Part shown: positions 73-64,000 of the stretch, in pieces
How the letters are laid out: every line of letters begins with the position of its first letter
Numbering within the stretch: position 1 is the first letter of the stretch
Assembly: GCF_027409185.1 (NCBI RefSeq)
Contig: NC_084467.1
Coordinates: forward strand, 14,746,501 to 14,810,500
Direction of reading: 5' to 3'
Source: Cynocephalus volans
Lineage: Eukaryota > Chordata > Mammalia > Dermoptera > Cynocephalidae
DNA length: 64,000 nucleotides
Translations under genes and position numbers: made by a program
The notes under the pieces: generated by a model
Seen by the model: only the letters and a program-made list of their open reading frames with translations
What the model was told of the DNA's origin: nothing
Databases searched by the model: none

Positions 73-1299
73 GAGCTAACTAAGGTGCTCTACAATCATA
101 TCAATAAAAGTTTATCACTAGACTAAATTGCTACTTTCCCAATATCAAAGGGGCTAACTAATGAGAGATAACAGTAAAGTCATATTAAAGTCTTCATGAA
201 AGTTTTCACAAAGTACACTTAACATCTAATAATTCTCAGGATGAGAACTTACACACACTAAAACTGAACACAAGAGATACCTCGTCAAAAGAACAGAAAA
301 CTACTATACGAAAAGAAACACTGGAGAGAATATCACGTTCCCATTACTTTCAGAATAGTATACCACCAAGACCCAGAAGGAAATTTAGCCTGTGGATTAG
401 AACCATATCCCTAAGGGAAGAGGAAAATTAAATTTAATCACTCAAGAGCGTCAAGAGTCCATATACTGGGGGTTCCAGTCAAGATGGCAAAATAGACAGT
501 TCCCAGCGTCACTCTCTCCCACAAATCAAACAATTTACAAATATAAAAATGTAACATCAGCCAAGGTGGGGCCACTGGAGCTCAGGGGAAGAGGAGGAGA
601 GAACTATGGAGTTCATGAAGGTGGGGGAAACCACAATGAAAGAAAGAAAAAGCTGCTCTGAGTGTTTCGGGCCACGGCTGCTTTAAGGCTCAAGCCGATG
701 AGCGCATGGAGCAGGAGCCGGCAGAAGCCGCAGCTGTGCCCTTCAGATGGAGTTACTTGGAGGCAGCAGGAGAGAAGAGGGCCTTGGCAGCCCCCAGGAC
801 ATCAAGACCACTAATAGGGTTCCCGTGGATGCACACAGGAGTGAGGAGCCAGAACAACCGAACAAAGGGAGCCATTCAGAGGCTGGTGAGTCATCGCAAG
901 GGAAGGGAACAGGGCCCATCCCATGTGAAGTGTTTGGAGCACAGGCTGTGGGGGAGATGGGCCTGCCAGGAGAACACAGGCACAGCAAGGACAGCCGATC
1001 AGCCCCCCAATCAGTGCAGGACCACTCAGAGGAGAATGGTCGGGAATGCAGAACTGCATGGGGTGCAGTTTGATGAAAAAACTCAGGCCCAGATCACAGA
1101 TTCTACAGAAAACAGATCCAACATGTCTCTGGAGAGCCGGAAGTACCTATAAGGTCAACCATTAAACCCTGAGCTGCAAAAAAAAAAGCCTTCCCTAGGG
1201 AAAGAGCAGCAAAGCAGCAATTTAACTCAACCACACTGCTCAAGTACTGGTTCCCATGGGGAGTTCCCCGGTGTTAGAAGCAAAGGACAAAAAATTAGT

Positions 1300-2045
1300 T
1301 CCGGCCCAGGCACACCATCAGCACCTTGGGGCCTGCCTGAGAACCAGAGGCTTGGATCCGGGAACCGGACCCCACTCCCACTTTCAGGCAAACTGCGCCA
1401 GCACCCTAGGGCCCGCTCGGGGAGCTGAGGCATGGAGAAGGGTATTGGACCTCTCTCCCACAACCAGGCACACCAAGCCAGCAACTCGGGGCCCACCCAG
1501 TGACCCAAGGCATGAAGCCAGGGACTGAACCCTCCTCCCACAACCAGGAACACCATGCCAGCACCTCAGGGCCTGCCCGGGGACCTGAAGCATGGAGAAG
1601 GGCATTGGACCTCTCTCCCACAACCAGGCACACCAAGCCAGTGCCTTGGGCCCTGCCCAGTGACCGGAGGCATGGAGCCAAGGACTACACCCTCCTCCCA
1701 CAACCAGGCATGCCACGCCAGCACCTCGGGGCCTGCCCAGGGACCGGGGACATGGAAAAAGGGACCAGACTGCCCCCCTCAACCAAGCACACCACGCCAG
1801 CACCCTGGGGCCCACCCAGGGACCCAAGGCATGGAGAAGGGGACGGGACCCCCCCTCCCACAACCAAGCACACCACGCCAGCACCCTGGGGCCCACACGT
1901 GGACCTGGGGCACAGAGAAGGGAAACGGACCCTCCTCCCACAACCAGGCACATGGCGCCAGCGCCTTGGGACCCACCCAGGGATCAGAGGTATGGAGAAG
2001 GGAACCAGACAAACCCCACAACCAGGCACACTGCCAGCGCCAAGG
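1300..2045 (+). repeat. VNTR, about ten units of 80 bp
   Basis: The anchor cagcacc or a close variant recurs at 1319, 1399, 1479, 1559, 1639, 1719, 1798, 1879, 1959 and 2035, so spacing is almost exactly 80 bp. Each unit reads roughly gccagcacctcggggcc, then a GGCATGGAG-like motif, then cctcctcccacaaccaggca. Units between 1399 and 1718 alternate between two subtypes, giving a 160-bp higher-order period. The open frames through this array are a by-product of the repeat. Confidence 0.92.
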
Positions 2046-2215
2046 AGTATACCAAAAACATCACCTCCATGTGAGTGGCCCACCACAGCCACTACAATAA
2101 TCATGGCTGCCGTGAAAGTAGCTGGACACCACAACCACCACGCAGATGGCCCGCCAACCACTGGAGTGCATTCACACAAGGAGAGTCACCAGCAGAGATA
2201 AAGAAGAGGATGTCT

Positions 2216-2383
2216 GGGCTGAGCCCGTGGCTCACTCGGGAGAGTGTGGCGCTGGGAGCGCCGAGGCCGCGGGTTCGGATCCCATATAGGGATGGCCGGT
2301 TTGCTCACTGGGTGAGCGTGGTGCTGACAACACCAAGTCAAGGGTTAAGATCCCCTTACCGGTCATCTTTTTTAAAAAAAAAA
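2216..2383 (+). mobile_element. CYN SINE, dimeric form, inside the composite element
   Basis: A tRNA-Ile-like head is followed by a second tRNA-like module (gagcgtggtgctgacaacacc) and the tail taccggtcatctttt plus A-run. Perfect 15-bp duplications aagaagaggatgtct (2201-2215, 2384-2398) show that it was inserted into the composite element after that formed. Confidence 0.93.
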
Positions 2384-3775
2384 AAGAAGAGGATGTCTCT
2401 CTCCACAAAGCCCATTTCAGAGTGACCCATTTCAGAAGAAGCATCTGCTCTACGATAATATTGGGGGACCTGATCACACCTCTCAGCGTTGGACAGATCA
2501 TCGAGACAACAAATTAACAGAGTAACCATTATTCTTTCAGAAGGAGAGAAGAAATCTAGGGTAATTAGACAGGGGAGGGGGAGGGAGGGGGGAGAGGAGA
2601 TATTGGACAAGGGGCATAAAGAATAATTACGATTTGTAACAATATATATGCTAGTAATATTGATTTGATCAACATATCTCAATGTTCAACCCCCAAAATA
2701 TGTATAATCGATTTTGATTCAATAAATAAAATAAATTTTTTTAAAAAAAAGAATCCATATACTGTACCCTATAGCCAGACATAAGGATTCCTAATTCTTA
2801 CATATCAATTTTTAAAAAAATAAACGTGAAGTACATAGGGAGTCCATTTCTAAAAATAGTTTGAATCCATCCGTGATCTACCACCCATGGAGAATAGACT
2901 AAAATAAATGGACCAATGATCCTCTAGGAGTCTCCAGGCTTCAAATCCAACCCTGCCAATAAGAATCAGTGAGCCAGTTTCTTATTGACAGCCTCCTTCC
3001 TGACCTGATGAGAAATGCTTAGACCAGTTTTCTTCTACTTCTCTGAACCCATGATAGAGAGGGGTGGTTGGCCGGCGGCGGCTGCTGTCCTGAGGTCCAC
3101 TTGCCCACCCAAATGGAGGACTTAGCAGGTTATGCTGCACCTTTTAAAACACAAATAATCAAATTAAGAAAGATACCCAGTAACCATCCTGCTTTTCATC
3201 CCAGACATGATAACAGATTGACATACCAAAGCCTGGAAACTCACAAACCAAAATAAAATTGTAAAGATTTTTCTGTTGACTTCTTTTGGAAAGCATTTTT
3301 TGATGGAGCATAAAGGGAACAGGGCTCAATGAAACATTTTTTAAAATGCTGAACATAACCCTTAACTGGCCCTCACATCCTCATTTTGGAGCCTCACAAC
3401 AAAGGAATTTACCAATCTATAAAATGTATTGCTTGGCCATCATTCAACCACTAATGATTACTCATTGAGGGCCACTGTGAGACAAGTAAAGCAGGTTACG
3501 TAATTCAAGGAAGAACACCAGTGAATATAGCCTACAATCCAATTTTAACAAAAGCATCAAGGCAAGTAATCTACATTTACTGCTTCTGGCTAAACATAAA
3601 GTGCAACTGCACACACACAAATCTCAGTGCTTTTCCTAATCCTACCCATAAACCTACAGCCATGAACACCTAAAACCTATAGTAAGCAGGTCATTTGGGC
3701 TTTGGATCATGGTAACTTTTGAGAAGACTAAAGCCCTCAATAACAGTAAAACAGAAAGAATGTGTTGTTCTGTAC

Positions 3776-4058
3776 CTGCTCAAACAGATACACAGGGGCT
3801 CTGGAGTACTGATGCAGCAGATAATCAAAGATCAAAAGGAGGCGAGCCAGGATGAGAGGCACAGAGCGCATCTGAGCATCCATGTTGACACTCAACTCCT
3901 GGATGATCTGTACAAAAAGTGTCAATATGCCCCGCCGGCCTTTCTCAGTGAAGTTGTGGAAAATGAGGAGGAGCAGCTGCAGGTGTTCTATATTCAAATC
4001 TTCTGTCTCATTGGGCACCAGCCCTTGCAGGGCATTCTGCTTCATTGTAGACAAAAAC
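3776..4058 (-). CDS. UBR4: UBR4 coding exon 19 (last in window)
   Basis: Codons 788-882, [20 protein letters not shown] to VYLFEQ. The acceptor is ggtag and the donor is gtacag, in phase 0. No continuation exon is seen in 1-3775, so the next exon must lie beyond the left edge. Confidence 0.96.
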
Positions 4059-6095
4059 CTACCACAGAGAAAAGGAGAATATGTCTGGTGGGAAAATGTC
4101 AGAACATCCGCCAAGAGTTACAACATCAAATGCTGGAAGAATGAAACTTTTCAAACCCAAGCATTAATATAAGGAAGAAAAAACCTACATGGTAAAGAGA
4201 AGACAAAAACTAAATTTTGGCTACAAAAACATCAGATTTGGCCACAAAAACATTTCCAAGAACCTTTCAGCTCTCTCAACTGTGGCCACAATGGTGTTAA
4301 TACCCACTCTGCCATTTGTGACAATGGAAAGAACTTCAAGCTCCCAAAAAAATACTGTTGTTGTTTCTTTTTAATTAATAAACCTAGGCAGGTAGAACCA
4401 ATTCAGTTACTTTTCCCTATACTTTGATTCATAATTTAATTCGTTTTCAGAGTTTACAATATAGATTAAAACCATTATATGATAATAGTCAAAAATAATT
4501 CAATAGACCCTAAAGCAATAGAAAAGAAATTATACTATTCAGAGAACTTGACAGAAGAGCTTTTATACAAAAAAGGAAAGGAATGACTATAACCAACTGT
4601 TTCCACTGCCATTGGCTATTAGGAAAGAGATTTGTGTTTTAATAAGTTTCCTTCACCACATGCCCCTCACCCCACTTCCTGGCCTTTTTGCAAGACTCCA
4701 CCAGGAAAAAGATAGTGGGTCTTTGGCATTCAAGGAGGTTTATGGTTTCTCAAATACAGCATTAAAGCTATTTGATCCTAGAATGGGAAAAAGAAAAGCA
4801 AAGCCTTTTAGGAAAACAAACTGCTTTGAAGACTCCTAACCATGTAAACAAAAATGGCAAATACAGGTCCTTCTAAAGAGGATTTAGATGATTAATCTGA
4901 GCTTCCCCCAAGGAAAAAAATTCTTTAAAATTTGTCCAAAAAAGACTGCAAATCACTCTAAGTGGTTTCATGTCGTAAGCAAAATAATCAAGGACAGAAT
5001 TGGCTTCCCTGTTCCCTCTTTTTCAAAAAACCAGGTCAGGATAAAATTGGTTATGTTCAGGATTCAGGTTCTATCTAATAATTATAAGCAAATCCCCCAT
5101 GTGCTACAGGAAGATTCTATTTCCAGACCACAGTTTACATACTTGTTCTTTTAACAGCACATCTTCCTGCAACTCCCCCATCACTCCTTTCTACCCTCCC
5201 CACTCTAAACACTATCATCATGGCAATGCCTCACCACAGCTGAAATACAAAGAAGTCCCAACAAATAAAAAAGTAAAACAACTCTCTGGAGTTATCTTAC
5301 CTGTCCCAAACTTTAAGGCATTCAGGGACATCAGGGTCACCTTGAGCACCAGCTTTATGCTGCCAGATGAGCAGAAGGCGTGAAAGCACGGAGAGGCTTT
5401 GAGGGTGAATGTACAAGGGCCAAGGGCCTTCAGAAAAAGGAGCAACCCCCAGCTGCTGCAACAGTGTGTTCTGATGTGAAAGACATACAAGAGACCATCA
5501 GGAAAAAGACATGGGATAACATCAAAAGGTTACTCATATTGTTCTCTAATGTTTGTTTTTTAATATTGGATGAAGTACTTTAAGGAAAGAAAGACCCAGA
5601 ATTCAGATTTAGAAGTGGTTTGGAGAAATATCATTTGGTTCAACAAATGAAAAAATAGAAGTGAAAAATTACTAATCCCCATTAACATCTATAGGTAAGT
5701 AGTGTCAGAAATGGGCTCCTGGAAAGGAGAAATGCATTGAGATAAACAGAATCAGGTTAATTTTGTAACTGTATAGAAAGTGAAAAGTTGGTGCCTTCAA
5801 AAGAAAACTTCTTTAACAACTGTGATAGCCAACAGTTTTTCTTTCACAACCAGTTACATGACACAAATAACACCCAAAAGGGAAAAATCCAACAACCTGT
5901 AGATTCAACAACTTGTATTAACAGAATTAGCAGAGAAATTTTGCCTATGAGATGTCAAGGCGTCTAAAACTAATCAAGGTTGTTCTTGGAAAGCAGCTAT
6001 GCTCACCACTATACCCTCAACACTAAGATTGTTCTTTGCCTCCACTTTTAGCATGTCTTTTGAATGAGCTTCTCTTTCAGCTCTGTTCTCAGTTG

Positions 6096-6187
<92 letters not shown>

Positions 6188-9100
6188 GCCCTGCTTTGTC
6201 TTTGGAAGACACAAACCATGGTTACCTCAGGATAAATTTCTAAGTCTGCCAAATTAAATTATATTCTTATAAAACATCCTCAAGGACCCCATTCCTTAGA
6301 AATGAGTATTAATCAAAATGCAGCAGATCTCAAGAGCAGTCTCAATTCATTAGGCAGTTACCACAGGCTGAGCATCAAGCTAAGTGCTGTACACACACTA
6401 TCACATTGACTGTACAGGGCACTGGCAGGAGGTGAGTGTATGTGCTCCGTGTCACAGATGAAGGAGGTTGAAGGACATGATCACAGCCATAAGGTCATTA
6501 AGTGATGAAGCCAGGTTTAGCTCTCACACCCACGTTCTTAACCACTATGCACAACACAGCCATAAACGACTTCTCAATTCCACACTCCAAGGAAACAGTT
6601 CCAAAAAAAAAAAAAAACATCAAAAAATTAAAAATTAAAAATAAATTAAAAAGAGAAAAACAATTTTAAAATAAAAAGAAAAAAAATACAAAATAATTTA
6701 CCTGAGCTACATCAAAAATATTAACTGTAGCACAACTGTAATACTGGAAAAAATGAAGGAAAAAATCTGTGTGTTTAAATGAAGGGACATACAGCCATAC
6801 ATATGGACTATGGACAACATACCAGAGTACTTCAAAAAGTTTGTGGAAAAACAGAATTAAAAGATAATGACACTTGCCAAACCTTTTGAAGATCCCTCGT
6901 ATACTCTTTATAATGTTATCTCTACAATATTTTTTAAGTGAGGATTTGTTTGTTTTCACCTTTGCTTCAGTTTTTTAGGCCTCAGAGCCCTATGAAATGA
7001 GCTAAGATTCCAAAGAACCAGGTTTTTCCCTACCATTCCACCCTTTATCTGCTCTAAGTGAGGTAACTGATTCTCTACGAAGTAAAACTGCACCACAGCT
7101 CACACTGCAGCAGGACCCTGGCTCCTCCCTACACTCTCGGGCCTTTCCTACATCCCTCTTTAAGGCTGGCATTCCTGAGGTTTCAGCCTCAGCCTTCAGC
7201 TCCCTTGCTAACTTCCACCCAGCTCGTTTCTTCAACAACTGCCCCTTTGTGGATAACTCCCAAAGCTGTATTATCAATCTTAATTTTATTTTTTATTGGG
7301 TTTTTTTATTGTTTTATTTTAACTTCTCAATATACATTGTAGTTGATTTTCGTGTCAATCTTAATTTTAAACTCCAAAATTTCAGACTCACATTTTCAAC
7401 TATTTTCTAGACATCTTCACCCCACTGGTACCCCAAAACTTCATATTTAAAATGAAACCCAATATTTCTACCACCAAATCAACTCTCCTTCATGACTTCC
7501 CTGTTTCTATTAATGACAATAGCATCCTTCTTGTCTCTTGTTTTTTTTAAAAACAAACAACACCTAAGACTCCTTCCTCTCCATGCCCTTCACCCCATTA
7601 ACATAATTTCCGATGATCTCTACACTGTCCTTTATTCACACCACATCTCCCACCTTTCTTGTGATCCCACATAATTCATCATCTTTATTTCTTCAGTGCC
7701 TACAACAGTACCAGGCACATGGTAGGTGAGGTGCTCAATAAATATTTGAGTGAATGAACCTAGATCACTGCAAAACAACCATATTAAATAATAATAAAAT
7801 TATAAAGATAGCAGTTTACATTTAGTAGGTACTGGTACTATGTACCAAGCACTATTTTTTTTTTTTTCTAACTTCAAGGTTCATACCATATTGTAGCATG
7901 CCAGAATTTCCTTCCTTTTTAAGGCTTAATATTCATTGTTTGGATGTACCACATTTTGTTGATCCATTCAAATGTCAATAGACACTTTGGTTGCTTCCAC
8001 CTTTGGCTATTGTGAATTATTATACTGCTATGAAGGTGGGTATACAAATATCTGCTCATGTTCCTGCTTTCATTTCTTTTGGGTATATAAGTGTAGTTGC
8101 TGGATCATGTATATATAATGTACATGATCATATATATATACGTAGAATTATTATACATAATTCTATATGTAGTATTTTGGGGAATTGTCCTACCATTTTC
8201 CACAGCAGCTATACCATTTTATATTCCCATCAGCAATGAACCAGGATTCCACTTTTCCAGATCCTCCCAACACCTGTTTTCTGTTTTTTGGTGTGTTTTT
8301 TTTAATAGCCATCCCAATGGAGACACATAAAGTGGTATTTCATTGTGGTTTTGAGCCAGGCATTATTTTAAACACTTGCCATGTCCTAATTCACTTAACA
8401 GCCACTGACACTCTGGACTTCCATTTTCTCTAGGTCCACCCTACTACCATACTAATCTTATAAAAGCACAGCCCAGTGGCTCTCCACTACTTCAACTCCT
8501 TCATATGGATTTCAAGACCCCTTAATGATACATCCCAAACTATCTGACATCCTCTTTCAGCCAAAGTGAACCCTCTTCAGCTTTGCGCAGTGGCAGTATC
8601 GTAGCCAATGAGGTTTATCCGAGGCGCGATTATTGCTAATTGAAAACAAAGTGAACCCTCTTCTGTGCCCTCTACTTACAGCACCTCACCCTTGCTACTG
8701 CCGTTTTCCCTACTTGGTTGGGTTTTTTTTTTTTTTTTTTTTTTTTTTTGGTGGCTGGCCAGTACAAGGATCTGAACCCTTGATCACAATGGTACACCAC
8801 CACACTCTGCCTAACTGAGCTAACCGGCCAGCCCCGCTACTTGGTATTCTAACAATACCCATCCTTTCCACCTCTGAACACATGCTACAGCTTCTCTGAA
8901 GTCTTACCTTCCCAATCCCATGCCTATATCCCTCAAACTAGAAGCATTCTCCCTCTTCTTTCACCCTCTATTCCACTTTCCCCATTTGGACACTCAACAG
9001 ATTTTATACTAAATTGGCTATTTGTATACCTACCAAACTCTATTCCTAGACAACAGGGTTTCTGTCTTATCTTTGATTTCCCCATAGTACTTAGCAGGAC

Positions 9101-12100
9101 ACTCTGTTCCTAGTAGTGCTAATAAATATGTATAAAAGAGAGCCTCGGTAGACAGACTTCCAACAAGAGAAATCCTAAAATCTAGCACGCCAAAAAGAAT
9201 ACCTCAGCTACCTTCTTACCCTGACCAGCTTACTAGACTGCTTTATTAGAAAAATTTAGAAGAAAGCAGAGAGGAGCCATGCCAAGCACATCTCCCACGC
9301 CTTGCAGCAGAAAGTCTACTTGCCAAGACATCCAAAAGTCATCGATAAGTAGATTTCAATTTCTTCTCTAAGTAGTGAGTAGGCCTACTGGTCTCACGCA
9401 CTCAGAACCATAGTCCTTTATTGCTATGACAGTCAAAGACAATGTTTAAGACATAACTTCTACTCCATTACTTTCACAGACTGAGGCACTGAGTATCCTT
9501 AGAGGACAGTGTGTGTGTGTGTGTCTATGTGTGTGTGTTTGTGTGTGTCTGTGTGTGTGTGTGTGTCTGTGTGTGTGTGTGTCTGTGTCTGTGTATGTCT
9601 GTGTCTGTGTGTGTCTGTGTGTGTCTTGCCACATAAATCAGGCAATCTGGGTAAAGAGGCTTTATACATTACTCCTAAAAAGCAACATCCAAGATAGGGG
9701 GGTGCAATGGCAGACAGATTACATGGACTACCTTTCACTCTCTTCTAACATAGCAAAGAAATTTGGGGGAAGAATTTAAAGTCCCATCTTTGGAGATGGA
9801 ATGAAAAAGCTTTAAGGATTTCCTTTGCCATAAGATCAGTAGTTAAGGGCAACCAGGTTGCAAGTCCACACAAGGTCTGCAATTATTTTTTAAATGGTAA
9901 GAGGGTAACATCATTACTAGACTCTTAAGGACTTTTATTTTCTAGAGAAAAATATTTCTTCCCTATTTCTTTGGACAAGTTTAATCAGGATAAGGACAAG
10001 TCTTTGAACTCTGAAACTTCCATAAATAAACTTACATCTGGGAAAAGAGCTGACAACTTTGGCAAAACACCTTGACCCTATACAGTTTAAGAAGGTATTG
10101 TAGACTATATACTAATTGAAGCATTTCTTTTTCTTTATCTCAGACAGGTCAACAACTCTTCTACTCAATTTATATTCTCTTTCTGCCAAAATCAAATTTC
10201 TCGGGCCGAGCCCATGGTGCACTCGGGAGAGTGCGGCGCTGGGAGTGCGGCGACGCTCCCGCCGCGGGTTCGGATCCTATATAGGACTGGCCGGTGCACT
10301 CACTGGCTGAGTGCCGGTCACGAAAAAGACAAAAAAAAATCAAATTTCTCAAATGACAGTAGATAAGTGGGTTTTATAATCATCTTTTTATGCAACAAAA
10401 GAAATTTTTAAGAAAATTCTCAAATAGTTTGGGAGTACGAGAATCAACTCTAACCTCTTGAAATAACTTCTTGGCTTTTATCCCTTTGGGGGCAACTTAC
10501 AAGCCTTTGAATTGTATCTTGATTCTGAGAATCCACTGAAATAATCTTAAAAGTAACAAAAAATTTCTCAAAATAGTCTCAGCACAAATTATTGGAAAAC
10601 TACCAAACTAAATTCTATTAGGGGAGGGGGGGGTATCAGGGTAACTAGGAATCTACATTTTTAACAAACTCCCCAGGAATCCTTATGTACACTACAGATT
10701 GAAAACCGCTAACCTTGACCATGTTAAGAAAATTATTATCAAAATATGACATTGCGAAATGTTGGGAAAGGAAGTAAATCCACATGATCTCTGACACACT
10801 GCTGGTGGGAGTAAAAATTAGTGCAGCTACTTTACAGAGTAGTTTGGCATTATCTGCTTAAGGTCGCATACTCTATAATCTAGGAATTCTACTCCTAGTT
10901 ATATTCCCAAGAGAACCACTTGTCCATTTATCATAAGGGACATGTCCTGGAAAGATCATAGCAACATCTGGGATAGCAACAAAACCTGGACACAATTCAA
11001 ATATCCATCAGTGGGAGAGGAGAGGAGATGAATAAATTGGTATAGTCACAAACATGATGGAATATCATACAACAGTCTAAACAAGAACTACAGAAATATG
11101 CAACAATATAGATGAATCTTGGCAATATAGTACTATATAATATTAAGAGAAAAAAGCCTGAAAAGATTACATAGAGCATGATGGCATTTGCTATAAAGAT
11201 AAAAGCAAATAATGGGTTTTTTTTAATTTAAGGAATATAGATGAGATAGATATATATATATACATATATGGAAGTAAGGAAATGAGAAACTTGAGATTTA
11301 GGATTCAAGGTATCAGCAACTTCAGGGGGGAGAGAGAACCGTAAGACTAGAAGTACACAATCAAGGTCCTAGACTTTGTTTTGGCGGTGGATTTACTAGT
11401 GGGAATGTTTATAATAGCATCTATCTCCTGTAATTTGATTGATTCTTTTAAAACATGCACTTTAATTTGTATTTCTTCAATTATCAGTGACGCTGAATAT
11501 TTTTTCCTATGTTGGATGGCCATTTATATTTCTTTTTTATAAATTGCCCTCTTGTGTATTCCTACTTTTTGACTAGCCTAATCATCGGGAGTTTGTTTTC
11601 GTAGTTTCTCCTTTTCTTTAAGCTTACTGACTTGGGGATAAAGGACACATTTTCTTTGTCTTGAAATAATCCTAATTAAAGTATACAGGGGCATATCAGA
11701 ATAATCTCTCAACACACTTTCCAGTTTGGATTCAATGACAAACTGTTCCTTAACAACAGGAATAGAACAACGGTAGCCTACAGAGCTGGTGTAAAGAGGT
11801 CTTGACCAGACAGTCACAGGGCACACAAACCTGCAGGTTAGGTGACTGAAGGTCAGAAGTTACCAGAGAGTGGTTGAAGTGATAGAGAGCAGCAGCAAAC
11901 TCTTCATCTGATGACCCTTGAAGGTAAATGGGAAAACCAATTAACCAAGCAGCTATGTCATGTATCAACCACCCTGCCAACAGCCAAATGCCACTAGAAA
12001 AAAATCCACCAGGCACATATCCTATCCACTGACCCTTCAGTCCATCTTTGTCCACCTCCTTGATGATACTAGCCAGGGTGGCCATATGGTGTTCTGAAAG

Positions 12101-15100
12101 AGATACACTCAGATAGTTTCGAATAAAATTGTTCCGAGAGTTCAGCATGGAAGAGGTGATGAAGTTCAAAATGTTGGAAGCCAGACCTAAGAACTAAAAG
12201 GAACACAAAAAAGCCCATATCAGGGTTATACGCCCAGAGGTCCTACAAACCCTGAATACCCAGAGCTCCTACAAACCCTGAACACAAATAGGAAATAAAA
12301 TGTGTCCATAGGTCTCATGCAATAAACACAATGAATTAAAGAACCAGATTTTAAATCATTTTCAATGGAACTAAGTTTAATTATGAGTCTTTCCCATGTA
12401 ATTCTACCAATTACACAAAATGGTATGCCAGTTTAATACAACAGACTTCACACAATATTACATGAAGACACAGGATTTCCAAATAGAAATGGTTCTTTTG
12501 TTTCTCTAAAGTCCTGTCTTTGTCCAGCTCTAAAATATTATTGATATATTCATTTCTGAAGCCTGTATTATCCTTTTGTTTGTTAGTTCGTTTGTTTGGT
12601 TTTTGGCAACTGGTCAGTAACAGGAATCAAACCCTGGACCTTGGTGTTATCAACACCATGTTCTAACCAACTGAGCTAATTTGCCAGCCCTGAAGCCTGT
12701 ACTAATGATTATTAAACATTTATAGAATTCTCGTCTCTTTACTTCTTTATTAAAATTAAATTGAAGGGCTGGCCGGTTAGTTCGGTTGGTTAGAGTGTGG
12801 TGTTATAACACCAAGGTCAATGGTTCAGATCCCCATACCAGCCAGTTCCGATCAATCAATCGATCAAATTGAATTGCTGTGTAAATGTTTTATGTCCATA
12901 GACTGTAAGCTATATAAAGGTAAGAATTTTATTTAACTCATTCACTGATATAGTAACAGAATGCGGCGGACACACAGTAGACAATCAATAAATATTGGAT
13001 GAACTAATAATTAACAAGCATTACGATGTATCATACTTTAAAAGTATTCTCGCTAAAGCTGGCCAGTTAGCACAGCTTGTTACATACAGCACAGTGTTAT
13101 AACACCAAGGTCAAAGGTTCGGATCTCCATATCAACCAGCCGCCCTCCAAAAAAGTATTCGCTCTTTAAGTCTTCACAACACCCTTAGAGGCAGGTACAA
13201 TCACTCCCATACAACAGGAGACAAAATTAAGGCTTGGAGAAATTCAGATTCTTGCCCAAGGTCACAAAGCCAATAAATGGTACAAGTAGGATTTAAACCT
13301 ACCTCTTCAGTCTAATTCTAAAGGCTATGCTACTAAGCATCAATCAGAAAAACAATAGCAGGAATATAAATTATTTAATGAAACATAATCAATACACATC
13401 AATCCTAAGCAAAAATATCTTTAAACATTACCCAACCTCCAAAATGTTTTAGTTGAAATGGTTTGCTTCTCACACCCCGTCCCTTCTCCCCATTTTCCCT
13501 TCCCCTAAACCTTAGAAATCCACTCTTACCAACTCAGGATCTTTGCGACTAGCCAAAATGTTGCCCTTCTCTCCAGGGGCCTGCTTACTGGGGCTTTTAA
13601 CCCGAGGAGAGCTCTCCAGCGGAGGAGGCGGGGGAGGGGGTGGAGGTGCCGCTTTCTCTTTACTGGGGGAGATGGTCTCCTCAAACCATTGCCCCAAAAT
13701 AGGCTCACTGTCATCATCTGAATAGAGAAAGAGAAAGTAACAAAAATAACAAATTAAAAATACAATTTTGGTACATACATCTGCTTTCTAAAAGTGCCGA
13801 ATTGAAAGGAACACAAAGATATCCTGACTGTATGGTAGTTACAAGGTTGCATAAATTTGTCAAAACACATGTAAATGTATATGGTAAAATAAGAGTGTTT
13901 TATTGTATGTAGGTTATACATCAATAAAACTAATTTTTTTTAAAGGAGCCCAACAAAGGAAGAAAAACAACTTTGTTTTATTTTTAACTGGCAACAAGCC
14001 AAACATTTCAAGAGCAAATTTATACTTGGCTTATCAACTGTAAACCCCAGGATAATAAAAATCACACCACTCTCAATATTTCATATTGTTCCCACAAACC
14101 TGATTATTTATGAAGAAGAATTCCAGATATTTATCTCATTCACTCTCTCTCCAAACTAAGGCAGGAGGGAATGTTAGTTAGGCCCTATAACAGTGTTGAG
14201 TTTCTCTCCTTACTCTTCCCTAAGCTACGAATCTACGACAACAGCCAAACCAAACACATCACACATGACCTTTTGAGTTTCACTGGGAAAGCTCAGAGAA
14301 GAGGTCACAAGATGGGTCAACATAGGAAGAAATATGAACACCTGAGATGTACTTTGATTTTGGAGAGAACGAGATGAAAAGCAGCCTCAGCTTGGCTGAA
14401 GATAGTACCCACCATTCAGTCTTCAATAGCTCAACCTGCTTTTAATTAACATCTCATCTTTGCGTACACATAAAATGAAGGATTAGGCAAGGCAGGTGAA
14501 AACAAAAGGGTAAACAGGAAACGAAAGGAACCTACTGGGAAAGCTCCTATTGCATTCTGTGGCTTATCTCTAGGACAGAGAAAAGAGCGGTCTCTACCTT
14601 GGCTGCTGTCCTCCTCCGTGCTACTGAAATCATCCTCATAGTAGGTGTTGGAGTCGGTGGAGGCACTGGCATCACTACTCATGGAGCCTTTCCTCTGCCG
14701 CTGCAAAACACATGCCTAGGAAAGCAGGAGGTTTTTGTCATTAATGATTACAAAAAGGAAGCCATCCTACTTAATCTTGTTCACCACAAGAAAAGTTTTC
14801 TCCATATCTCGTTCTTTTTTCTAAATTCAAGAAATATTTCTCCTAATAGCTCCTTTAGGAATATCACTGATTTATCCTACAAAAGCATTCCCAACCAGAG
14901 ATAGGACAAGAATTTTTAAAAAGGAGCTTTCCACAGCATCCTGTTTTTGCTTCATATGCCAGCTGACACAAATCACTGTGTAGCCACATTATCACAACAC
15001 TGAAAATCCATAACTGATTCAAATGTTTGGATACGTTCAACCAGTTAAGGGTTTCTCCCTTCTTCAAAACCATTACCACAAATTTGGCTTTATAAAGGCC

Positions 15101-18100
15101 ATAGTATATGGTCAGTCTTAGTCATTTCAAGGTCATATAATTATAAAAAGCTCCTCCAAATTATCAATGCTTGATTCCTACACACCTTTCTGTAGGCAGT
15201 TGAGAGTAATGTCAACAGCAGGTTTGTCAGTGGGACAGAGTCAATCAGGCGTTGAATCCTCTGTATGGAGGTGCTCTGGGCCATAATGCTCAGGACCGCA
15301 GGGGGACCATCTGTCTCCCAACCCTGAAGGTAATGATAACAAAGGGGAATTAATGATAGAACTTAGCCAGAAAGAAAAACCTGAGTTGATGGATTAAGTT
15401 AGCTTACCCAGAAGTGAATCTAGCAATCAATATGCTGATTCCCATGAGTATAACCTCCTCACCTTATGAAGAGCCTCCACTTGCAGGTCTTGAAAGAGAG
15501 ATGTTAACAGCTTGATGGCATGATTTGCCAGTATTACTGACAACACCCCAAATCCCTGATGCCTACACAAAGAAAAAGGAAAACACATACCTTAAAATAA
15601 TTAACAATGAATTACAACCTCTGAAACAGGGGATCTAGCCATTTTGGGGTCTTAGATCCCTTTGAGAATCCATGGACTTTTTCCCAGAAAAAAAAAAATT
15701 GTATATACACATAAAATCTGCATGTAATTTCAGAAGTTCACAATCTCCCTTACGCCTATCCATAGACTACCTAAGGATCTACAAGCTTCAGGTTAAGAAC
15801 TCCTGGACAAGACGGAACTCCTCCAAATCTACTGATTTTTGGAATCTAAACTATCAATTCTTTTGGGTCATGTGAAGATACTGACATTTAAATGCTGACT
15901 GAATTTTTATTTATTTTTTTTTTTTATTTTTTTTTATTTTTTTTTTTTTTTGAGTTTAAATGCACTTTATTTTTAGACAACCTACATGACATGTTTTTTT
16001 CTTAAAAACAATGCCTCCACTCCAAATAAATCATGGTCAAAATAAATGAAGAGCTCAAGATGGCATCAGTCCCATTTGTCTTAAGTCCTGGTGTTGTGTG
16101 GATGACAAGCAGCAGCCAGTTATGACGACAGGTGATAGATCCAAAGTAATTGCCAAATGTGTTAACATTTTTCCATTTCTAAACCATCCTTAAAGAAAAT
16201 CATATATGGGGTCACACCATCCTCACGGTAGTCCAGCAGAGCAACCATGCCATCTGGATTCATGTTTTCACCAATAAAGAATTGGTAGTTTTTGAAATTA
16301 GCAAGGATGTGCTTGATTTGTTCTGCAGCCCCTGTCATAAAAGGTTTTACTCTTTCTGGCCTCTGTTCTTCAAGTTTCCCTTTGATTGATTTCATGTAAT
16401 CTTTGATGTACTTCTTGTAGGCTTCTTTCGTGAAGCTAGTTTCCTGCAAGTGATGGTTCATGACAATATCAACACCAGTGATTACTGTGCTTTCAGTACC
16501 TTCGCCCTCGGGCCCTTCAGCGGAGGCATTTCCACCAATGAGCGAGTCATCAATGTTACCCTCTGTCCTACTGACCATCTTCCCCTCCACTTCCAGGCAC
16601 AGCCCGTCCGCGATCTCCCGGATCTTGTAAATGTCGGAGAACATCTCATCATCTGGGCTGATGAGGTCCCGGTAGATGATCATGATGGCGGCCGGAGGGA
16701 GACAACGGCGGCGCTAGCTTGGCAGGAGCCCGGAGCTCGGAGCGAGCGCGCTGGAGCCGGAGCAGCGCTCGGGGGGAGGGGGGAGCGGGCGGAAAAAGCT
16801 GACTGAATTTTTAAAGAATTATTCTTAGTTGTTTAAAATTAACAACTTTTATAAAATATCTGGGAACAAATCTAAGAGAATAAAAACAGAAAGTTTTATA
16901 TCACACTTGAGTGAAACAATTTCTGTCCGAAATGTCCACATGACAATGGGTTAATATAGCTAATATACAACAAGCTCATGTAAATCAGTAAGAAAAAAAG
17001 GACAAACACCAAAGGGTAAATTGAGGCAGAGGCCGTAGGCAGTTCACAAAAAAGAAACATGACCAACCAATATATGAAATGCAATACAATCACAAACTAG
17101 GGTATAAAAGAAATACAAATAAAAAGCAACTTAATAGCATTTTTCTCCTCTAAGATTTGCAAACTTGAAGACTAATACCCAGTGACAAAGAAGGCACAGT
17201 GAAATGGGCATATGCACACTGCTGGTGGGAATGCAGATTAGTATAACTTTTCTGAAGAGCAGTTTGGCAAAACATTTCCAGTATGTATGTTCTTTGTTGT
17301 AAGAATTATACTTCTAGAAATTCACCCCAAGAGGACAATTAAAGACGTTTCTATAAGTTTATGTTTCATGTTTATCCAAGCATGACTTATCAAAACAAGA
17401 AATTAGGACCAACCTAAATAAGTGTCCATCAATAGGGAATTAATCAACTATAGTACATCTACTGTAGTGGAATACTGCCAGCCATTAAAAAATTAGACTC
17501 TCTAATAGTGTCACAAAAAAGATGTCTACAGTAGTTTGTATACATTGATCCATTTTTACAAACTTATATGCAGACGATCCTGACTTGCAATGGTTCAACT
17601 TAAAATTTTTCAACTTTATAATGGTGCAAAAGCAATATACATTCAGCAGAACATCAGTAAATTACATGAGATATTCAACAGTTTGTTATAAAATAGGCTT
17701 TGCATTAGATGGTTTTGCACAACTGTAGGCTAATGTAAGTGTTCTGAGCATGTTTAAGGCAGGCTAGGCTAAGGTATGATGTTCAACAGGTTAGGTGTAC
17801 CTGTATCAAATGCATTATTGACTTAACAATATTTTCAACTTACAATGGTATTTTTGGAATATAATCCCAACATAAGCCAAGGAGCGTATGTATTTTATCT
17901 ATGTGCACAGAAAAATGTCTGGAAGAGTGTTTATCAATTTGAGTGGTAAAAGTTGGAATGTTGTTTTTCCTTTCCTGCTTCTCTGTATGGTTTGTAACTT
18001 AAACAATGTACATGTATTCTTTTTAAATCTGAAAAAGCAAAGCGTAACTGCTACTTCTAAGGGTACTCCTTTTGGCATTCTCCCATTTTCCTTTACTATG

Positions 18101-21100
18101 CCTAAAGTGTAGAAAGTCACTCATAAAATCACAAACTACGCTTCAACCTGGAACACTCTTACCTCCCTACCTTGCCTACTATCTATCACCTACCATCTCA
18201 ATACCTATTTCAGATTTCAGCTCCATCAGCACTTCCTCAGAGAAGCCTACCTTGGTTTCCCTGGCTGGTCAAATGCCTCTATTATACTACTCTCTAGATA
18301 CAACCTGACATACATTTGTATGAATATCTACTTCATATCTCTTGAGAAGGTGTCCATTTTTTGTTCATTACAGCATTACAGAACTAACACAGAGCCTGGG
18401 ACAGAGAAGATACTCAGTGAATAATGTGTTGATGAAGTCCAGAATTTGACCTCTTCCTTGAAAACCAAACTCACATAACCAACTGCCTACTCAACATCTC
18501 ACATAGAGGTCTAACAATCATCTCAAACTCAGCACAGCCAAGATTAAATTACTTGTTTCTTCCTCTTCCTCCCATTCCACCTACTCCTAAACCTATGTTC
18601 CTCATCTCAGTAAATAACACAACCCAGAAGCTCAAGCCAAAATATTTTGTTGTCATCTTTTTCACACTCAGCATCCAAGCCATCAGCAAATGCTGTCAGC
18701 TGTACCTTCCAAACATATCCCCACTTGACCTATCTTCTCTGCCTTTACCACCACCACCCAAGTCACCTTTATCTCTCATTTGGAGTGATGCGTTAGCTTC
18801 CTAACTGTTCCCCTCCCTTCTGTCTTATGCCCCTGCAGTATACTCGCCACATGGCAGCTGGGTTTTCAAATCACTAAATCAGACCATGTCTCTCCCATGC
18901 TGAAAACCAACTAACATTACTTATCACATTTGGCCCTAGATGATCTGGCCACTGGCTATCTCTCTGACCTGATTTTCTACCACTTTCCCCCTCAATTTCT
19001 CTATGCTAGCCACACTGACCTTGCTGATCCTCAAAAATGCCAGTTATACTTCCACATCAAACCTGAACAATTCTACCCCAAATAATTAACATGGCTTGCT
19101 CTGTCACCTCATATATGGTCTTTACATCCTGTCTTCAGTCATCTTTCCAGACTATCCTAACTAAAATAACAGCCCTTGTCATCTTCTAGCCCTTTACTCT
19201 GGCTTCTTTTTCTTCAAAACCCTTATATATCATAATCAATATTGTAATTATCAGTATATTCATTTACAGTTTCTCCAGATAGAAAATAAGAAAATAAAAC
19301 TTCATAAAGGCAAGAACATGGCTTTTCTTTAGTGCTGTATCCTCAATGCCTAGAATAGAGCCTAGTACGTGGTAGGGACTGAATGAATAAATAAAACCCA
19401 GAAATGCCCGGGCTTAGAAAACAAAATTTTGAACATCACCTTCATCATAACTCTTCTTTCCTAGCAAGCAGGGTTTATTGCCCAAACTTCATTAAAATAG
19501 TAGCAAATGCTTTAGGAAGCAAACCAGGAGGACCTGACAATATCCTCACCTTACAGGTTAAACATGTGAGTACTCAACTCCAAGTCAAACGAGGCTACGT
19601 TAGAAACAGAAGCATTTTCCTTCTTTAAAAATCCTAAAAAACACATTACACAGATTATTTTCTCCCTCCGACAGATGAGAAAATAGGATCAGTAAAAATG
19701 AGTCAATTATCCAAAATCACACAGCTTAATGTAGAGACAGTAGATCATGGTCATCATCTTAGTTGTTAAATTCAAACCACGTAAGAAGGCGATTTTTTTC
19801 CTACTGGTATAGAGATGAGCTACACTAGTTCCTCATCAATATAAAATGGCAGGAAAACAAAATAAAACAAAACATTAGTGACAATCAAGTGGACACATAC
19901 CCTTTTCCAGGCCCCAGTTTAGGAGAGCCCACTCCCTCTTTTGTACGAGAAAGGATGTCTCTGACTCGGAGAGCAGCCAGTGGATCTTTCTCTTTCCCCT
20001 TATCAGCCAAGGCAGTAGGACTGAGGTTCAATATGAGGAAAAGGCTGTTTAACAAACACCAGGCACCCAGCAATTGGAAGTTCTGATAGTGCTGTTGTAA
20101 AAGGCACAAAATGAAAATATGAACATAGAGATATCCACATCTTAGAGACTACAAGATAGGAATGCAGCAGACACATGCGTCTTACCTCACCACCAGCGCG
20201 GCGGGAATTGCTGATTGCCTGTCCAATCATGTCATAGATCTCAAGCTGTCCAATATCAAACAGACACAAAAATCTTAAGTAATACATAAGTTGATGTATT
20301 TCATTATAAATACTAAATCCCACCCAAATTAATTTAACATGAAGAGTTAAACATTCTCAGGTCACTTTTCAATGATACAATTCCATCACACTTTCCTTGA
20401 TCTTCATATGGAGCTGACTCCCTCTTTTCATTCAGTTCAAATGTTACCTTCTCAGAGGCAATACCTCCACCCAATCCCCAGCCCCACATCGATTACTTTT
20501 GAACATAATTTGTTTAATGTACTTACTACTATCTGAAATTATCTTGCTTATTATATGTCTCCCCAAAAAGTACACTGAAGCCCTCAAATGTATTTGCTGA
20601 ATGAATGACTAATCTTTTACAAGGTCGACTTCCACCACGAAGTTTCTGTGTTTTCTACAGAGCCAAGAGAAAGGTAAGCATCTATGCAAACCAATATGCC
20701 AAATAAACAAGCTGAATGACTCCTTCTTAGACCTACTACCCAGGAAAAGGAAAATAAAGAATACTTAAGTCCCTTCCTCTATCAAGGAAGAAAGTGGAAC
20801 TGGCCATATTCCTGCATTGGGACAATCAAGACCCCCATATCTCCAGATACTCAGCTTACACATTTCTGGACAATTGTAGCTGCATCACTTTCATAGTCTT
20901 CTTCTTTGGAGCTTGTGGACCCTGTCCGCACTTGCTGGGCACTACCCACATGAAGGATTGCCATGCAGGTTGCCACACTCACACCTGAAAAGGAAGATGC
21001 ATAGATTCCAATTATGGAGTCCTTCCAAGAATCTACCAAAACTGGAACATAAAAATACATCCCACCCACAAGCAATTCCATAATTTGATTACTGAAAATG

Positions 21101-24100
21101 AACTCCATAAGAGCAAGACTAAACACACTCTTAACATACAATCCAGCAATCACACTCCTAGGTATTTATCCAAATGAGCTGAAAACTTAAGTCCACATAA
21201 AAAAACTGCACACAAATATTTACAGCAGCTATATCCATAAACGCCAACAACTAGAAGCAAATAAGATGTCCTTTAACAGGTGAAAGGATAAACAAACTGT
21301 GTTACATCCATACAATGGAATTTTATTCAGCAATAAAAAGAGATGAGCTATCAATCCAGAAAAGACATGGAGGAACCTTAAATGCATATTGCTAACTGAA
21401 AGGAGCCAGTCTGAAAAGGCTACATACTGTATGATTCCAACTACTTGACATTCTTGAAAAGATAAAACAACAGACAGTAAAAAGATCAGTGGTTACTAGT
21501 AGTTAGTAGGGCAGGGTAAGGGATGAATAGGCGGAGCACATGGGATTGTTAGGGCTGTGAAACTATTCTGTGTGATATAGTAATGATGGATACATGACAT
21601 TATACATCTGTCAAAACCCACAGAACTACACAGTACAAAGAGGGAACCCCAATGTAAACTATGGACTTTAGTTAATAATAATGTATCAATATTGGTTCAT
21701 CAAAAAACAAAACAAAGAAATATTGGTTCATCAATGATAACAAATGTGCCATGCTAATTCAAGTTGTTAATAATAGAGGAACTGTGTATGGGGAAGAGGA
21801 GTTATATGGGAACTCTGTACAATCTGCTCAATTTTTCTGTAAACCTAAAACTGCTTTAAAAATAAAATCTATGGCTGGCCAGTTAGCTCAATTGGTTAGA
21901 GCACAGTGTTGATCTCTGAACTGGCCAGCCACCCCCCCAAAAAATACATACATATGTACATAAAATCTAGTCATCTTTTTAAAAATAAATTTTTTTAAGA
22001 TTATGAAAAAAGGGCCGGCCCGTGGCTCACTCGGGAGAGTGCGGTGCTGATAACACCAAGGCCCAGGGTTCGGATCCCATATACGGATGGCCGGTTCGCT
22101 CACTGGCTGAGCGTGGTGCTGACAACACCAAGTCAAGGGTTAAGATCCCCTTACCGGTCATCTTTAAAAAAAAAAAGATTATGAAAAAAAACCTCATACT
22201 TGGTATTTCTGAAAGACATCAAAGCCAAATCCCTTTCTTTAAATTAAATCCCAAGTGATCAGATCTCAACAACAAACCAAGTCTGGAATCTTTAATCCAA
22301 CAATGAATTTTTAAGGAATCTTTAATCCTATTTACTTTAATTACTTATTGACTAAATACATTGAAATCCATGTGATAGTTAAGAAATTCTCTGGAAATTA
22401 AAATTAATAAACCCCAAATTAAAAATGCAAGATCAAACGTAGAGCACTAGAAAATTAAACACAGAAATCACCTTGGAAAAATGTATCTCACATGAATCTT
22501 TAGCTTTCTACTCTTTTTTTTTTTTTTTTTTTTTTTGTCGTTTTCGTGACCGGCACTCAGCCAGTGAGTGCACTGGTCATTCCTATATAGGATCCGAACC
22601 CGTGGCGGGAGTGTTGCCGCGCTCCCAGCGCTGCACTCTACTGAGTGCACCACGGGCTCGGCCCGCTTTAGCTTTCTACTCTTAATGCTGCTGCTTTAGC
22701 TCAGGCCCTAAATGTGTCTTGCCTGAATGACTACAAATTCCTCCTAACCAGTCTCCCTGACTCCAGTATTTCCCCACACCAAAATATCTTGCATACTACC
22801 GCCTGAATGTTCTTCCTAAAATACAGCTCAGATCCTCTCGCACTTCAGAATCTTTAATGGTCTCTACTGTTCATAGGATATAGTCCAAATGACTTAGCTT
22901 GCATTTCTAACTGAGTCCTACTTTTGGTTCAGCTACACAACACCCACTAATACCCATAAAACCTATGGATTTACACACCCATTTAGCAGTATGTTCCCCC
23001 AAATTCTAGGATACTTTTGGTACTGCTTTTGCCTGTCTAGGGATAGCCAAGCTGAAATCCTATCTTTCTAACAAGAGAGATATAACATCAGAACTCCTCT
23101 GTGACTACTGCCTTCCCCAACTCAAGAGTTCTGCCTCCTCTAAACTTCCATGGCACTTTCTCCTCACCTCATTCAGTTTCTTTTACATATATGTTATTTA
23201 CTAATATTGTCTAAAAGACAGTAATGTCCTTAAGAGCAGAGACACCTTTATCTTTAGTCCTATTTGCACACAGACATTCAAACTAAAGCTGTTCAAAGAA
23301 TGTATAGAGATGAGTCAACCTCAGCAATTTCTTGATGCTTCCAAGGCAGCCTGTCCTGTTCAAACCCTAACATGGTGAATCAAGTAAACTTCTGAAACTG
23401 CTATACCTTCGAAAACATACTAGGGCTATATGGTATGTCTTCAAATTTAAAACCACGGATAAGTGATTTGGATTAAAAAGTCACTTTAACAAGGGGCCGA
23501 GCCCATGGCGCACTCGGGAGAGTGCGGCGCTGGGAGCGCAGCGACGCTCCCGCCGCGGGTTCGGATCCTATATAGGACTGGCGGGTGCACTCACTGGCTG
23601 AGTGCCGGTCATGAAAAAGACAAAAAAAAAAAAAAAAAGTCACTTTAACAATAATTTAAAAGAGAGTAAACACCAGCTCTCAGGCCCCATTTCCAAGGCA
23701 CCATGATCAACAGGAAGAAAGAGGATTTTATAGGAGCATCGAGAATAACATTCTTCACATTTATCAATATAAAGAGATACTGCCTGTTCCATGAAGACTT
23801 CTTCAAATCTGCTCCCACAGCAACACTCAATCTCTCCCTTCTTTGTGTGCCCCAAATATTCTACACTTCTCTTAACGCCTTTATCATCCCCTGCTTTATA
23901 TTATTCTGTTTAGCCCTGTCTGTTCTCCACTGCTCAGGTATAGGCTCCTTGAGGGCAGGAACTATACTTTGTTCATCTCAACATCCCAACGGTCCTTAGC
24001 ATTTAGTTTTTCATACAGTAGATACTTAATACCTACACATACTATGAAGTTAAATGTACATACTACACGATGCCAACAGTTAAACAAGACCATTCACAAA

Positions 24101-35190: not shown

Positions 35191-36226
35191 CTTATGCAGA
35201 TGAGAGCTGTGTGGCTTCTGGACACGTAGGAAAGGTAAGTTTGGGACTTGGGTTCAGTGGACAAGTCCGGGGCAGCAGAGTTGATGATGTATCGGCGAAT
35301 ATAATGGCCCCAACCTGGGACGTCTAAAGACGAGAAGAGACCGAAGCCTACCCACTCTCACCCGCTTCTTCCCCCCATTTCTCCCCAATAGTAATTCGGT
35401 AGCACCTCTCGCTATTATTTTAATCACTAATCCTTATTCTCTTCGCGCTCAAATTTTTTATGTGTTTGGATTATCCTCAATCATTTTACAATCTCGTATT
35501 TGCATCGCGCTTTGCAATTCGCTTCGTAAGGTTCCGTTTTCCCCATTTCTCTATTAACAGTGAGAATGCAAGCTTTTATTCACAGGGGATTAGTGTCTGA
35601 GATTTTTGACGATAAAATAATGTGGGCACCAGATCTAACAGACTAGCAATTTGGCTGGAGGAAAGATATGCACGACTCGAGGACAATCTGTGTGAGATCT
35701 TGGTAGAGGGCATCAAACTCTAGGCCCTGTGGCCTGCACTCAGCCTAAACAAAGAAATCTTTGCAGGAATTCTGAAGACCGTTTGAAATTTCTAAAGCTC
35801 CGAGATTCTCCCCTACGTTTTGGAAGAGCTCCTTTTGTTCCCGGTTGTAATGCTGATAAATAAATTGGTACATGATGATTAATCTGCACTTTAAATAAGA
35901 AAAGACCTATTTTACATTAGAAATAAAATATCATCAAGACCAGTCTTGAAGGAAAATGTGGCTTCAGTGATAACAGGGGTTTTCTTTTAGTGTCTGTTTA
36001 CCAGTGGATGATAATAACAGCAAGTTTCATAAGCATAAAAATACAAAAAAAGAGGGAAAAGCTTTCCATAACACAGTAAATATTGCACTATTTCAGGATA
36101 TTAAAGCAGAACCCTCAGGAAAGGCTGGAGACCAAGAATTTTGTAGTGGTTTGGGGACAATAATCTTTAACCAAAGAGGAAAATTAATCTGCAAAGTTTC
36201 TCTTAGAGAGATTTCAGGAAATAAAT

Positions 36227-36694
36227 TGAGGTAGGAAGCTACATAGAGACAAGAGCAGGAGGAGGAAACGTTGTTATTTGCAAATGGGACAACCAGTTCC
36301 CCAAGGACATAGGCATGCACGTGCGCAAAAGTGGCCACATGAGACAATGGCAATTCCAGACAGGGCGCTCCCCTCACCCACCTTGGGCACCATTGGATTG
36401 GACCACCAGCTAGGGTGCCAATCATTTTAACCAACAGGACAGAGACTACACTCAGGGCTCAACCAATGACCAGAAAACACAAGTCCAGCTAAGAGGACTT
36501 AAACCACTGGGAATGTAACTATCAGGGCTCTTGAGCCACTCTCTTGCTTGAACCTGCTCCATGCTCTCCTTAGTATATTTTCATTTTGCTAAATAAAACT
36601 GCTCTTTGATTTTCACCTCTGGCATGTCTTGCCCAATTCTTTGTTTCACCAAGAACCTGGATTTAGCCAGCAGAACCTGGAATTTCCCTTAACA
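36227..36694 (+). repeat. ERV 5' LTR
   Basis: A 468-bp LTR from tgaggtaggaagct to ttcccttaaca. It has a CCAAT motif in U3 (aaccaatgacc, about 36460), AATAAA at 36592-36597 for 3' processing, and a U5 ending before the primer site. It starts about 1.3 kb from the UBR4 start codon. Confidence 0.95.
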
Positions 36695-43800: not shown

Positions 43801-43951
43801 CTCTCCCATTTAGATCAGGTAGGGTGAGAGTTTCGTGATCCCTAGTAGGCAGGGCCAACACCCATCTCCAGCAAGAAACAGCTACAGAAGATGGACCATC
43901 GCCCCTTTACAACCTATAAAGATTTATGGAGATCATGTCTCTCAGGGAAAA

Positions 43952-44601
43952 TGAGGCAGGAAGCTAGAGACAAGAGCAGAAGGAGGAAACCTGGTTATTT
44001 GCAAATGGGACAACCGGTTCCCTGAGGACTTAGGCACATGCACATGTGCAAAAGCTGCCACAGGAAACAAAGACAATTCCAGATAGGGAGCCCCACCCCC
44101 AACCTTGGGTGCCATTCATTCGGACCAATGAGCTCCCACCAGCTAGGTCACCAGTCATTTTAACCAATAGGACAGAGACTACACTCAGGGCTCAACCAAT
44201 GACCAAACCACACGAATCCAGCTAAGAGGACTTAAACCCCCAGGGGAATGTAACTATCCAGGCTCTTGAGACACTTTAGCTGGAGCCTGCTCCATCCTCT
44301 CCTTAGTGTATTCTTACTTTGCTAAATAAAACTGCTCTTTTCTTTTTGCCTCTGGCGTGTCTCGCTCAGTTCTGTTGGAAACATCAAGAACCTTGGGCCG
44401 AGCCTGTGGCGCACTCGGTAGAGTGCGGAGCTGGGAGCGCAGCGACGCTCCCGCCGCGGGTTCGGATCCTATATAGGAATGACCGGTGCACTCACTGGCT
44501 GAGTGCCGGTCACGAAAAAAAAAAAAAAAAAAACGACAAAAAAAAAAAAGAAACATCAAGAACCTGGATTTAGCCAGCAGAACCTGAAATTTCCCTTAAC
44601 A
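43952..44601 (+). repeat. ERV 3' LTR with SINE insertion
   Basis: It aligns end to end with the 5' LTR, from tgaggcaggaagct to ttcccttaaca, apart from the SINE and its duplicated target. A short purine-rich stretch (cagggaaaa) lies immediately upstream. Confidence 0.95.
44394..44549 (+). mobile_element. CYN SINE, GC-rich short form, inside ERV 3' LTR
   Basis: The short form with poly-A. Perfect duplications gaaacatcaagaacct lie at 44378-44393 and 44550-44565, in U5 sequence that is uninterrupted in the 5' LTR. Confidence 0.95.

Positions 44602-54733: not shown

Positions 54734-64000
<9,267 letters not shown>

Follow-up and report, generated by a model that had tools for sequence, protein, structure and literature searches.

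Composite retrotransposons with a central variable number of tandem repeats (VNTR) are known as the SVA, LAVA, PVA and FVA families, which, according to the excerpts of the papers cited here and below, share a CT-hexamer/Alu-like 5′ region followed by the VNTR (PMC4432496). In these families the central VNTR is made up of GC-rich units of about 30-50 bp (PMC4432496, PMC5753468), those of SVA measuring 35-50 bp (PMC5753468). The VNTR composites have been termed specific to hominoid primates, and the same paper also analyses SVA2 in macaque (PMC4432496). Here we describe an element at positions 469-2748 (+ strand) of a 64,000-bp stretch of the genome of the colugo Cynocephalus volans (contig NC_084467.1), the whole of which is referred to as the window. 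With L1-like ends, a tandem array and no L1 protein genes, the element is real and unusual, and we regard it, with moderate confidence, as an internally deleted L1 derivative without open reading frames (ORFs), the array of which would have come from the 5′ untranslated region (UTR) of the parent L1.

L1 itself gives rise to shortened derivatives. Spliced L1 RNAs are able to insert, and the SpIREs described in the excerpted source are splices within the 5′ UTR or from the 5′ UTR into ORF1 (PMC5860796), whereas HAL1 is a non-autonomous L1 derivative that keeps ORF1 and had several independent origins in mammals (PMC5753468). In mouse L1, the 5′ UTR contains tandem monomers and then a non-repeated tether before ORF1 (PMC9022269), and an array inside an L1 5′ UTR is therefore an ordinary possibility. 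In the open-licence literature on VNTR composites, L1 arrays and spliced or non-autonomous L1, no such composite was recognised outside hominoids and macaque in the titles and opening lines of abstracts among the matches listed. The open-licence literature on colugo L1 or colugo repeats yielded nothing on the subject, and the available part of PMC13174262 makes no mention of colugo.

Boundaries and insertion of the element

The element is bounded on both sides by a direct repeat (453-468 and 2749-2764), a 16-bp target duplication of the form AAGA[G/A]TCCATATACTG with 15 of the 16 bases identical and one mismatch, the copies of which adjoin an L1-type start on one side and an A-rich tail on the other. 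Among 3,000 position pairs picked at random at a similar spacing, 5 equalled its score (a fraction of 0.0017), and a chance origin of the flanking repeats was rejected on this ground. Because of the duplication, the tail and the L1-type start, the element is the product of one RNA inserted by target-primed reverse transcription in a single retrotransposition-type event; the target-site duplication and A-rich tail looked for in an L1-mediated insertion are both present. A first-pass annotation had placed here an SVA-like composite retrotransposon, delivered by one retrotransposition event between 15-bp repeats. The element has proved real, its duplication, L1-type start, array and tail all being recovered; the single event is borne out by duplication, tail and start, and the repeat is now extended to 16 bp with one mismatch and is unlikely to be due to chance. 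The element is about 2.1 kb long when a nested insertion, a tRNA-derived short interspersed element (SINE), and one copy of the SINE duplication are taken away. Its parts are as follows.

453-468, no strand: target-site duplication, 5′ copy (AAGAGTCCATATACTG), sharing 15 of 16 bases with 2749-2764
469-1305, + strand: L1-like 5′ UTR, starting with GGGGTTCCAGTCAAGATGGC and aligning with the start of human L1 from the same offset in both
1306-2031, + strand: GC-rich tandem array of about nine 80-bp units, partly as 160-bp dimers (Tandem Repeats Finder and unit alignment)
2032-2199, + strand: segment from array to SINE, perhaps a 5′ UTR tether, with no Pfam match in three frames and placed after the array as is the mouse L1 tether
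2200-2398, + strand: later insertion of a tRNA-derived dimeric SINE (2216-2382) with its duplication, recognised by the duplication and the tRNA-like halves
2399-2451, + strand: continuation of the segment before the SINE, leading to the ORF2 scrap; the boundary is uncertain by tens of bases, and gapped alignments of some L1 endonuclease proteins extend back to 2422-2434
2452-2527, + strand: putative L1 ORF2 scrap, endonuclease residues about 140-165, frameshifted, found as two collinear tblastn pieces
2528-2748, + strand: L1-like 3′ UTR with a G-rich polypurine tract (2571-2600), AATAAA signals and an A-rich tail
2749-2764, no strand: target-site duplication, 3′ copy (AAGAATCCATATACTG), pairing with 453-468

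L1-like ends and tandem array

Bases 469-515 were aligned with the opening 37 bases of human L1, and the match starts at base 9 in both. Its score was reached at 2 of the 12,792 window places tested, both of them overlapping the start at 469; measured against the human L1 start, the element thus has an L1 5′ start. The 5′ start GGGGTTCCAGTCAAGATGGC includes AAGATGGC, which we take to be a YY1-type site. Unique sequence occupies 837 bp 5′ of the array. Comparison of this 5′ part with the remaining window gave tied low scores and nothing specific, as did comparison of the segments on either side of the SINE.

Tandem Repeats Finder reported the array at 1306-2031 with a period of 80 (9.1 copies, 74% matches) and, as a second solution, at 1306-1980 with a period of 160 (4.2 copies, 76% matches). 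Nine units cut by script had pairwise identities of 64-84%, the closest being units 2/4 and 3/5 (84% each), with units 7/8 at 82%. By this comparison, units 2-3 and 4-5 represent one 160-bp duplication, which at 84% is not recent; since the units are too divergent, the array has not been freshly homogenised. Its GC content is 0.65, against 0.39 in window positions 3000-23000, and its CpG observed/expected ratio of 0.24 is near the background of 0.25. It was also noticed that stop-free frames cross the array on both strands, at 1410-2201 (+, 263 codons) and 1384-1983 (-, 199 codons); they have no Pfam match and probably arise from the GC-rich repeats as a side effect.

At the 3′ end, the G-rich tract contains, at 2572-2592, a sequence matching a G-quadruplex pattern, and three overlapping AATAAA signals at 2721, 2725 and 2730 (span 2721-2735) are followed by the A-rich tail. 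An older L1 in the window has its 3′ part at 59790-60170, directly after ORF2 sequence at 59637-59789; aligned with this 3′ part, 2528-2735 scored 59.0, a value that none of 1,000 shuffles reached. Of the 8 best among 1,282 window comparisons with the element 3′ end, 7 fell at 59566-60136 on the + strand. A blastn search of the 3′ end against phages gave no match. The older L1 3′ part is itself peculiar on the + strand at 59880-60262, with G-rich stretches at about 59880-59909 and about 60230-60262 that both score against the element 3′ end, an arrangement resembling two L1 3′ ends in tandem.

A probable scrap of ORF2 and no detected L1 protein gene

Search with human ORF2 protein by tblastn (residues 1-238 of the query being identical to PDB 1vyb) revealed two pieces, residues 140-151 at 2452-2487 and residues 150-165 at 2480-2527, in frames offset by 2 bases and scoring 20.8 and 24.6 bits. 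The better piece had an E value of 0.004 when the element alone was searched, and the best of 120 listed L1 endonuclease proteins reached 2.3e-4, again for the element alone. These alignments suggest that 2452-2527 very probably derives from the L1 ORF2 endonuclease. All that was found of the ORF2 sequence looked for in an L1 derivative is this scrap of 26 residues; with it, the element would consist of more than a pair of UTRs flanking an array, and no fewer than two internal deletions or splices would have gone into its making. The layout given in the first-pass annotation, an L1-like 5′ UTR, a VNTR and an L1-like 3′ UTR, therefore stands as to the L1-like ends and the central array, but the part outside the array is not purely UTR, given the probable ORF2 scrap. 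Its further statement that ORFs and L1 proteins are lacking agrees with the Pfam scans of the element frames, in which no L1 protein gene was detected.

In these scans, six stop-free frames of the element had no Pfam match (E up to 1). The segments 469-1305, 2032-2216 and 2376-2600, translated forward with X at stops, likewise gave none (E up to 5) in 8 of their 9 frames, the frame left out being the third of 469-1305. A coding element was rejected on these grounds. An ORF1 remnant was rejected as well, only weak matches to the human ORF1 protein being obtained, the best of them in the low-complexity array.

Two short sequences were seen around the scrap: CCCATTTCAGA occurs twice just 5′ of it, 15 bp apart (2411-2421 and 2426-2436, + strand), and a stretch resembling it, TTTCAGAAGGAG, lies directly 3′ of the scrap.

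Comparison with described elements

Like SVA, the element is ORF-less and has central GC-rich tandem repeats, an A-tail and, presumably, the help of L1 in trans. It differs in having neither a 7SL/Alu match nor a CCCTCT array (CCCTCT or its complement matches once in the element, at 776), and in its unit of 80 bp as compared with 35-50 bp in SVA. The 3′ part of SVA is the HERV-K-derived SINE-R; the 3′ end of the element resembles L1. A central VNTR combined with L1-derived sequence is shared with LAVA; however, the element lacks the CT-hexamer/Alu-like 5′ domain and has L1-like sequence at both ends. The grouping with SVA and LAVA put forward in the first-pass annotation is therefore not borne out: there is no 7SL/Alu match and no CCCTCT array, and the units are of 80 bp. 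Membership in the SVA/LAVA VNTR composites is not supported, because the testable defining features are absent. An Rfam scan of 400-2800 (E up to 1) found no RNA of the signal recognition particle (SRP), its four matches being two tRNA matches in the SINE and weak ones to a microRNA and a small nucleolar RNA family; Alu/SRP content was rejected on this basis.

With SpIREs, the element shares an L1 5′ start, internal loss, an L1-like 3′ end and production from RNA by the L1 machinery, but both ORFs are almost wholly gone in it. HAL1 is likewise a non-autonomous L1 derivative, but HAL1 encodes ORF1p, whereas the element has no ORF1 match beyond weak ones and no Pfam match. Mouse L1 similarly has tandem repeats in its 5′ part and then a unique segment; in contrast, the element has 837 bp of unique sequence before the array and an 80-bp unit, and no full-length element was seen.

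Origin of the element

For an internally deleted L1 derivative, the steps could have been as follows. An RNA would have started at the L1 promoter start and run through a 5′ UTR containing the 80-bp tandem array; nearly all of ORF1 and ORF2 would have been skipped in it, with the endonuclease scrap kept, and its end would lie in the L1 3′ UTR. Because the element has no ORFs, reverse transcription would have relied on L1 proteins encoded by another copy or by an unspliced RNA from this locus, and insertion into the UBR4 gene would have proceeded by target-primed reverse transcription. The array would then have belonged to the 5′ UTR of the parent L1 as a promoter array, and the coding region appears to have been removed prior to insertion, either through splicing of the RNA or already in the source copy, rather than later in place. 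Loss before insertion is favoured because the two joints, one between the array side and ORF2 and the other between ORF2 and the 3′ UTR, fit a twice-spliced RNA or a source copy built stepwise, whereas loss in place would need two events.

Several observations weigh against this derivation. Splice-acceptor-like stretches do lie by both joints (CCCATTTCAG at 2426-2435 and TTATTCTTTCAG at 2529-2540), but both are still in the sequence and can be judged only beside a parent L1. At the 3′ end, when 2602-2735 was compared alone, without the polypurine tract, the best matches were elsewhere, at 59281-59471 (- strand) and then at about 15000. The score of the tail part 2600-2735 was equalled by 66 of 1,000 shuffles against 60030-60170 and by 549 of 1,000 against 60170-60300, and that of the element 3′ end against a second old L1 (21380-21740) by 137 of 1,000. 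The match thus depends on the polypurine tract, and what speaks for an L1 nature of the 3′ end is this G-rich tract together with the position, the signals and the tail. In an unprimed search of the 64 kb, the ORF2 scrap gave a weak match of E 0.11, and a single piece as good arose in 49 of 2,000 dinucleotide shuffles, or in 2 of 300 by E value. A collinear pair was found in 0 of 2,000 such shuffles (best shuffled pair 41.2 bits, compared with 45.4), but this measure, the only one by which the scrap is rare, was chosen after the pair had been seen. Furthermore, a 50-residue frame of the scrap region had no match in a PDB search up to E 10, though PDB includes L1 ORF2, and frames of this region matched no Pfam family (E up to 5). 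For ORF1, the best of the weak matches in the element, with E 0.069, is placed in the array.

The first alternative to be considered is an independently evolved VNTR composite family, L1-ended and ORF-less, that acquired its own central array and reached many copies through L1 proteins in trans, resembling SVA and LAVA in working and not in descent. The anatomy fits, with L1-type ends, a long central GC-rich array, no proteins and a clean insertion; within the array, units 2-3 and 4-5 (84% each) form a duplicated 160-bp dimer, and the two joints could be a fixed structure of the family. However, no second copy was seen in the 64-kb window outside the array and the SINE (E up to 1e-3), a space too small for this to count for much. 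Four exact-pattern scans, of which three covered viral contigs and the fourth contigs of prokaryote genomes, gave 0 matches, and two element frames gave none in protein-database searches (one candidate with no match at E ≤ 10, and 411 candidates with no match at E ≤ 1), results of little weight as the host is possibly absent from these collections. We consider such a family unlikely; that a mammal lineage other than the hominoids has independently built one around an 80-bp central array, L1-ended, ORF-less and multiplied by L1 proteins in trans, is likewise rather improbable. One copy or many, both are compatible with an internally deleted L1 derivative.

A full-length L1 could instead have been inserted and have lost its ORFs by later private deletions in place, both ends being left. 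The insertion indeed looks old, the CpG observed/expected ratio of the element segments, SINE excepted, being 0.24-0.49 compared with 0.25 in window positions 3000-23000, and the direct 12-bp near-repeat TTTCAGAAG[A/G]AG on either side of the ORF2 scrap (2430-2441 and 2535-2546) is a possible deletion footprint, its score being slightly above chance (reached by 26 of 2,000 mononucleotide shuffles). Yet at least two deletions would be needed to leave the scrap between them while both ends and the duplication stayed clean, and we accordingly doubt that the ORFs were lost in this way. With the scrap, one private deletion becomes a less simple account, yet the element is tied closer to an ordinary L1 parent.

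If a second, unrelated origin of VNTR composites in another mammal were true, the role of the array in mobilisation in trans would become open to a comparative test, and a long central array without ORFs would be a repeatable way to hitch-hike on L1 and not a hominoid accident. Should the element be a single deleted L1, it would nonetheless indicate a tandem array within an L1 5′ UTR after unique sequence, a promoter layout unlike that of mouse L1.

Nested SINE and genomic setting

The SINE is a younger, separate insertion and no part of the element. It has a perfect 16-bp target duplication (2200-2215 and 2383-2398). Rfam recognised its tRNA-like halves, 2221-2277 below the cut-off and 2294-2365 above it, and ARAGORN predicted tRNA-Val(gac) at 2293-2367, in the second half. 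Seven other places in the window match it over at least 150 bp with 83-91% identity, an eighth of such length having only 73%.

UBR4 lies on the - strand of the window: 25758-26204 matches the Pfam UBR4 N-terminal family, residues about 647-700 are at 11753-12193, and residues about 790-879 of 5,183 are at 3776-4045 (chain 9nwd_A). From this arrangement the element would be in a UBR4 intron, beyond exon 3776-4045 in the direction of the gene and antisense to it. UBR4 and the SINE together presumably indicate a mammalian host, and the type of the SINE a colugo. Inside the UBR4 region, an open frame of 183 aa at 16165-16713 (- strand) has a full-length TCTP (TPT1) domain (profile 1-164 of 164) and is probably a processed retrocopy. 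Two same-strand repeats at 36223-36658 and 43948-44393 (+), 80% alike and about 7.7 kb apart, enclose at 39095-40980 matches to reverse transcriptase (partial) and to RNase H (below the cut-off); the repeats are probably the long terminal repeats of an old endogenous retrovirus.
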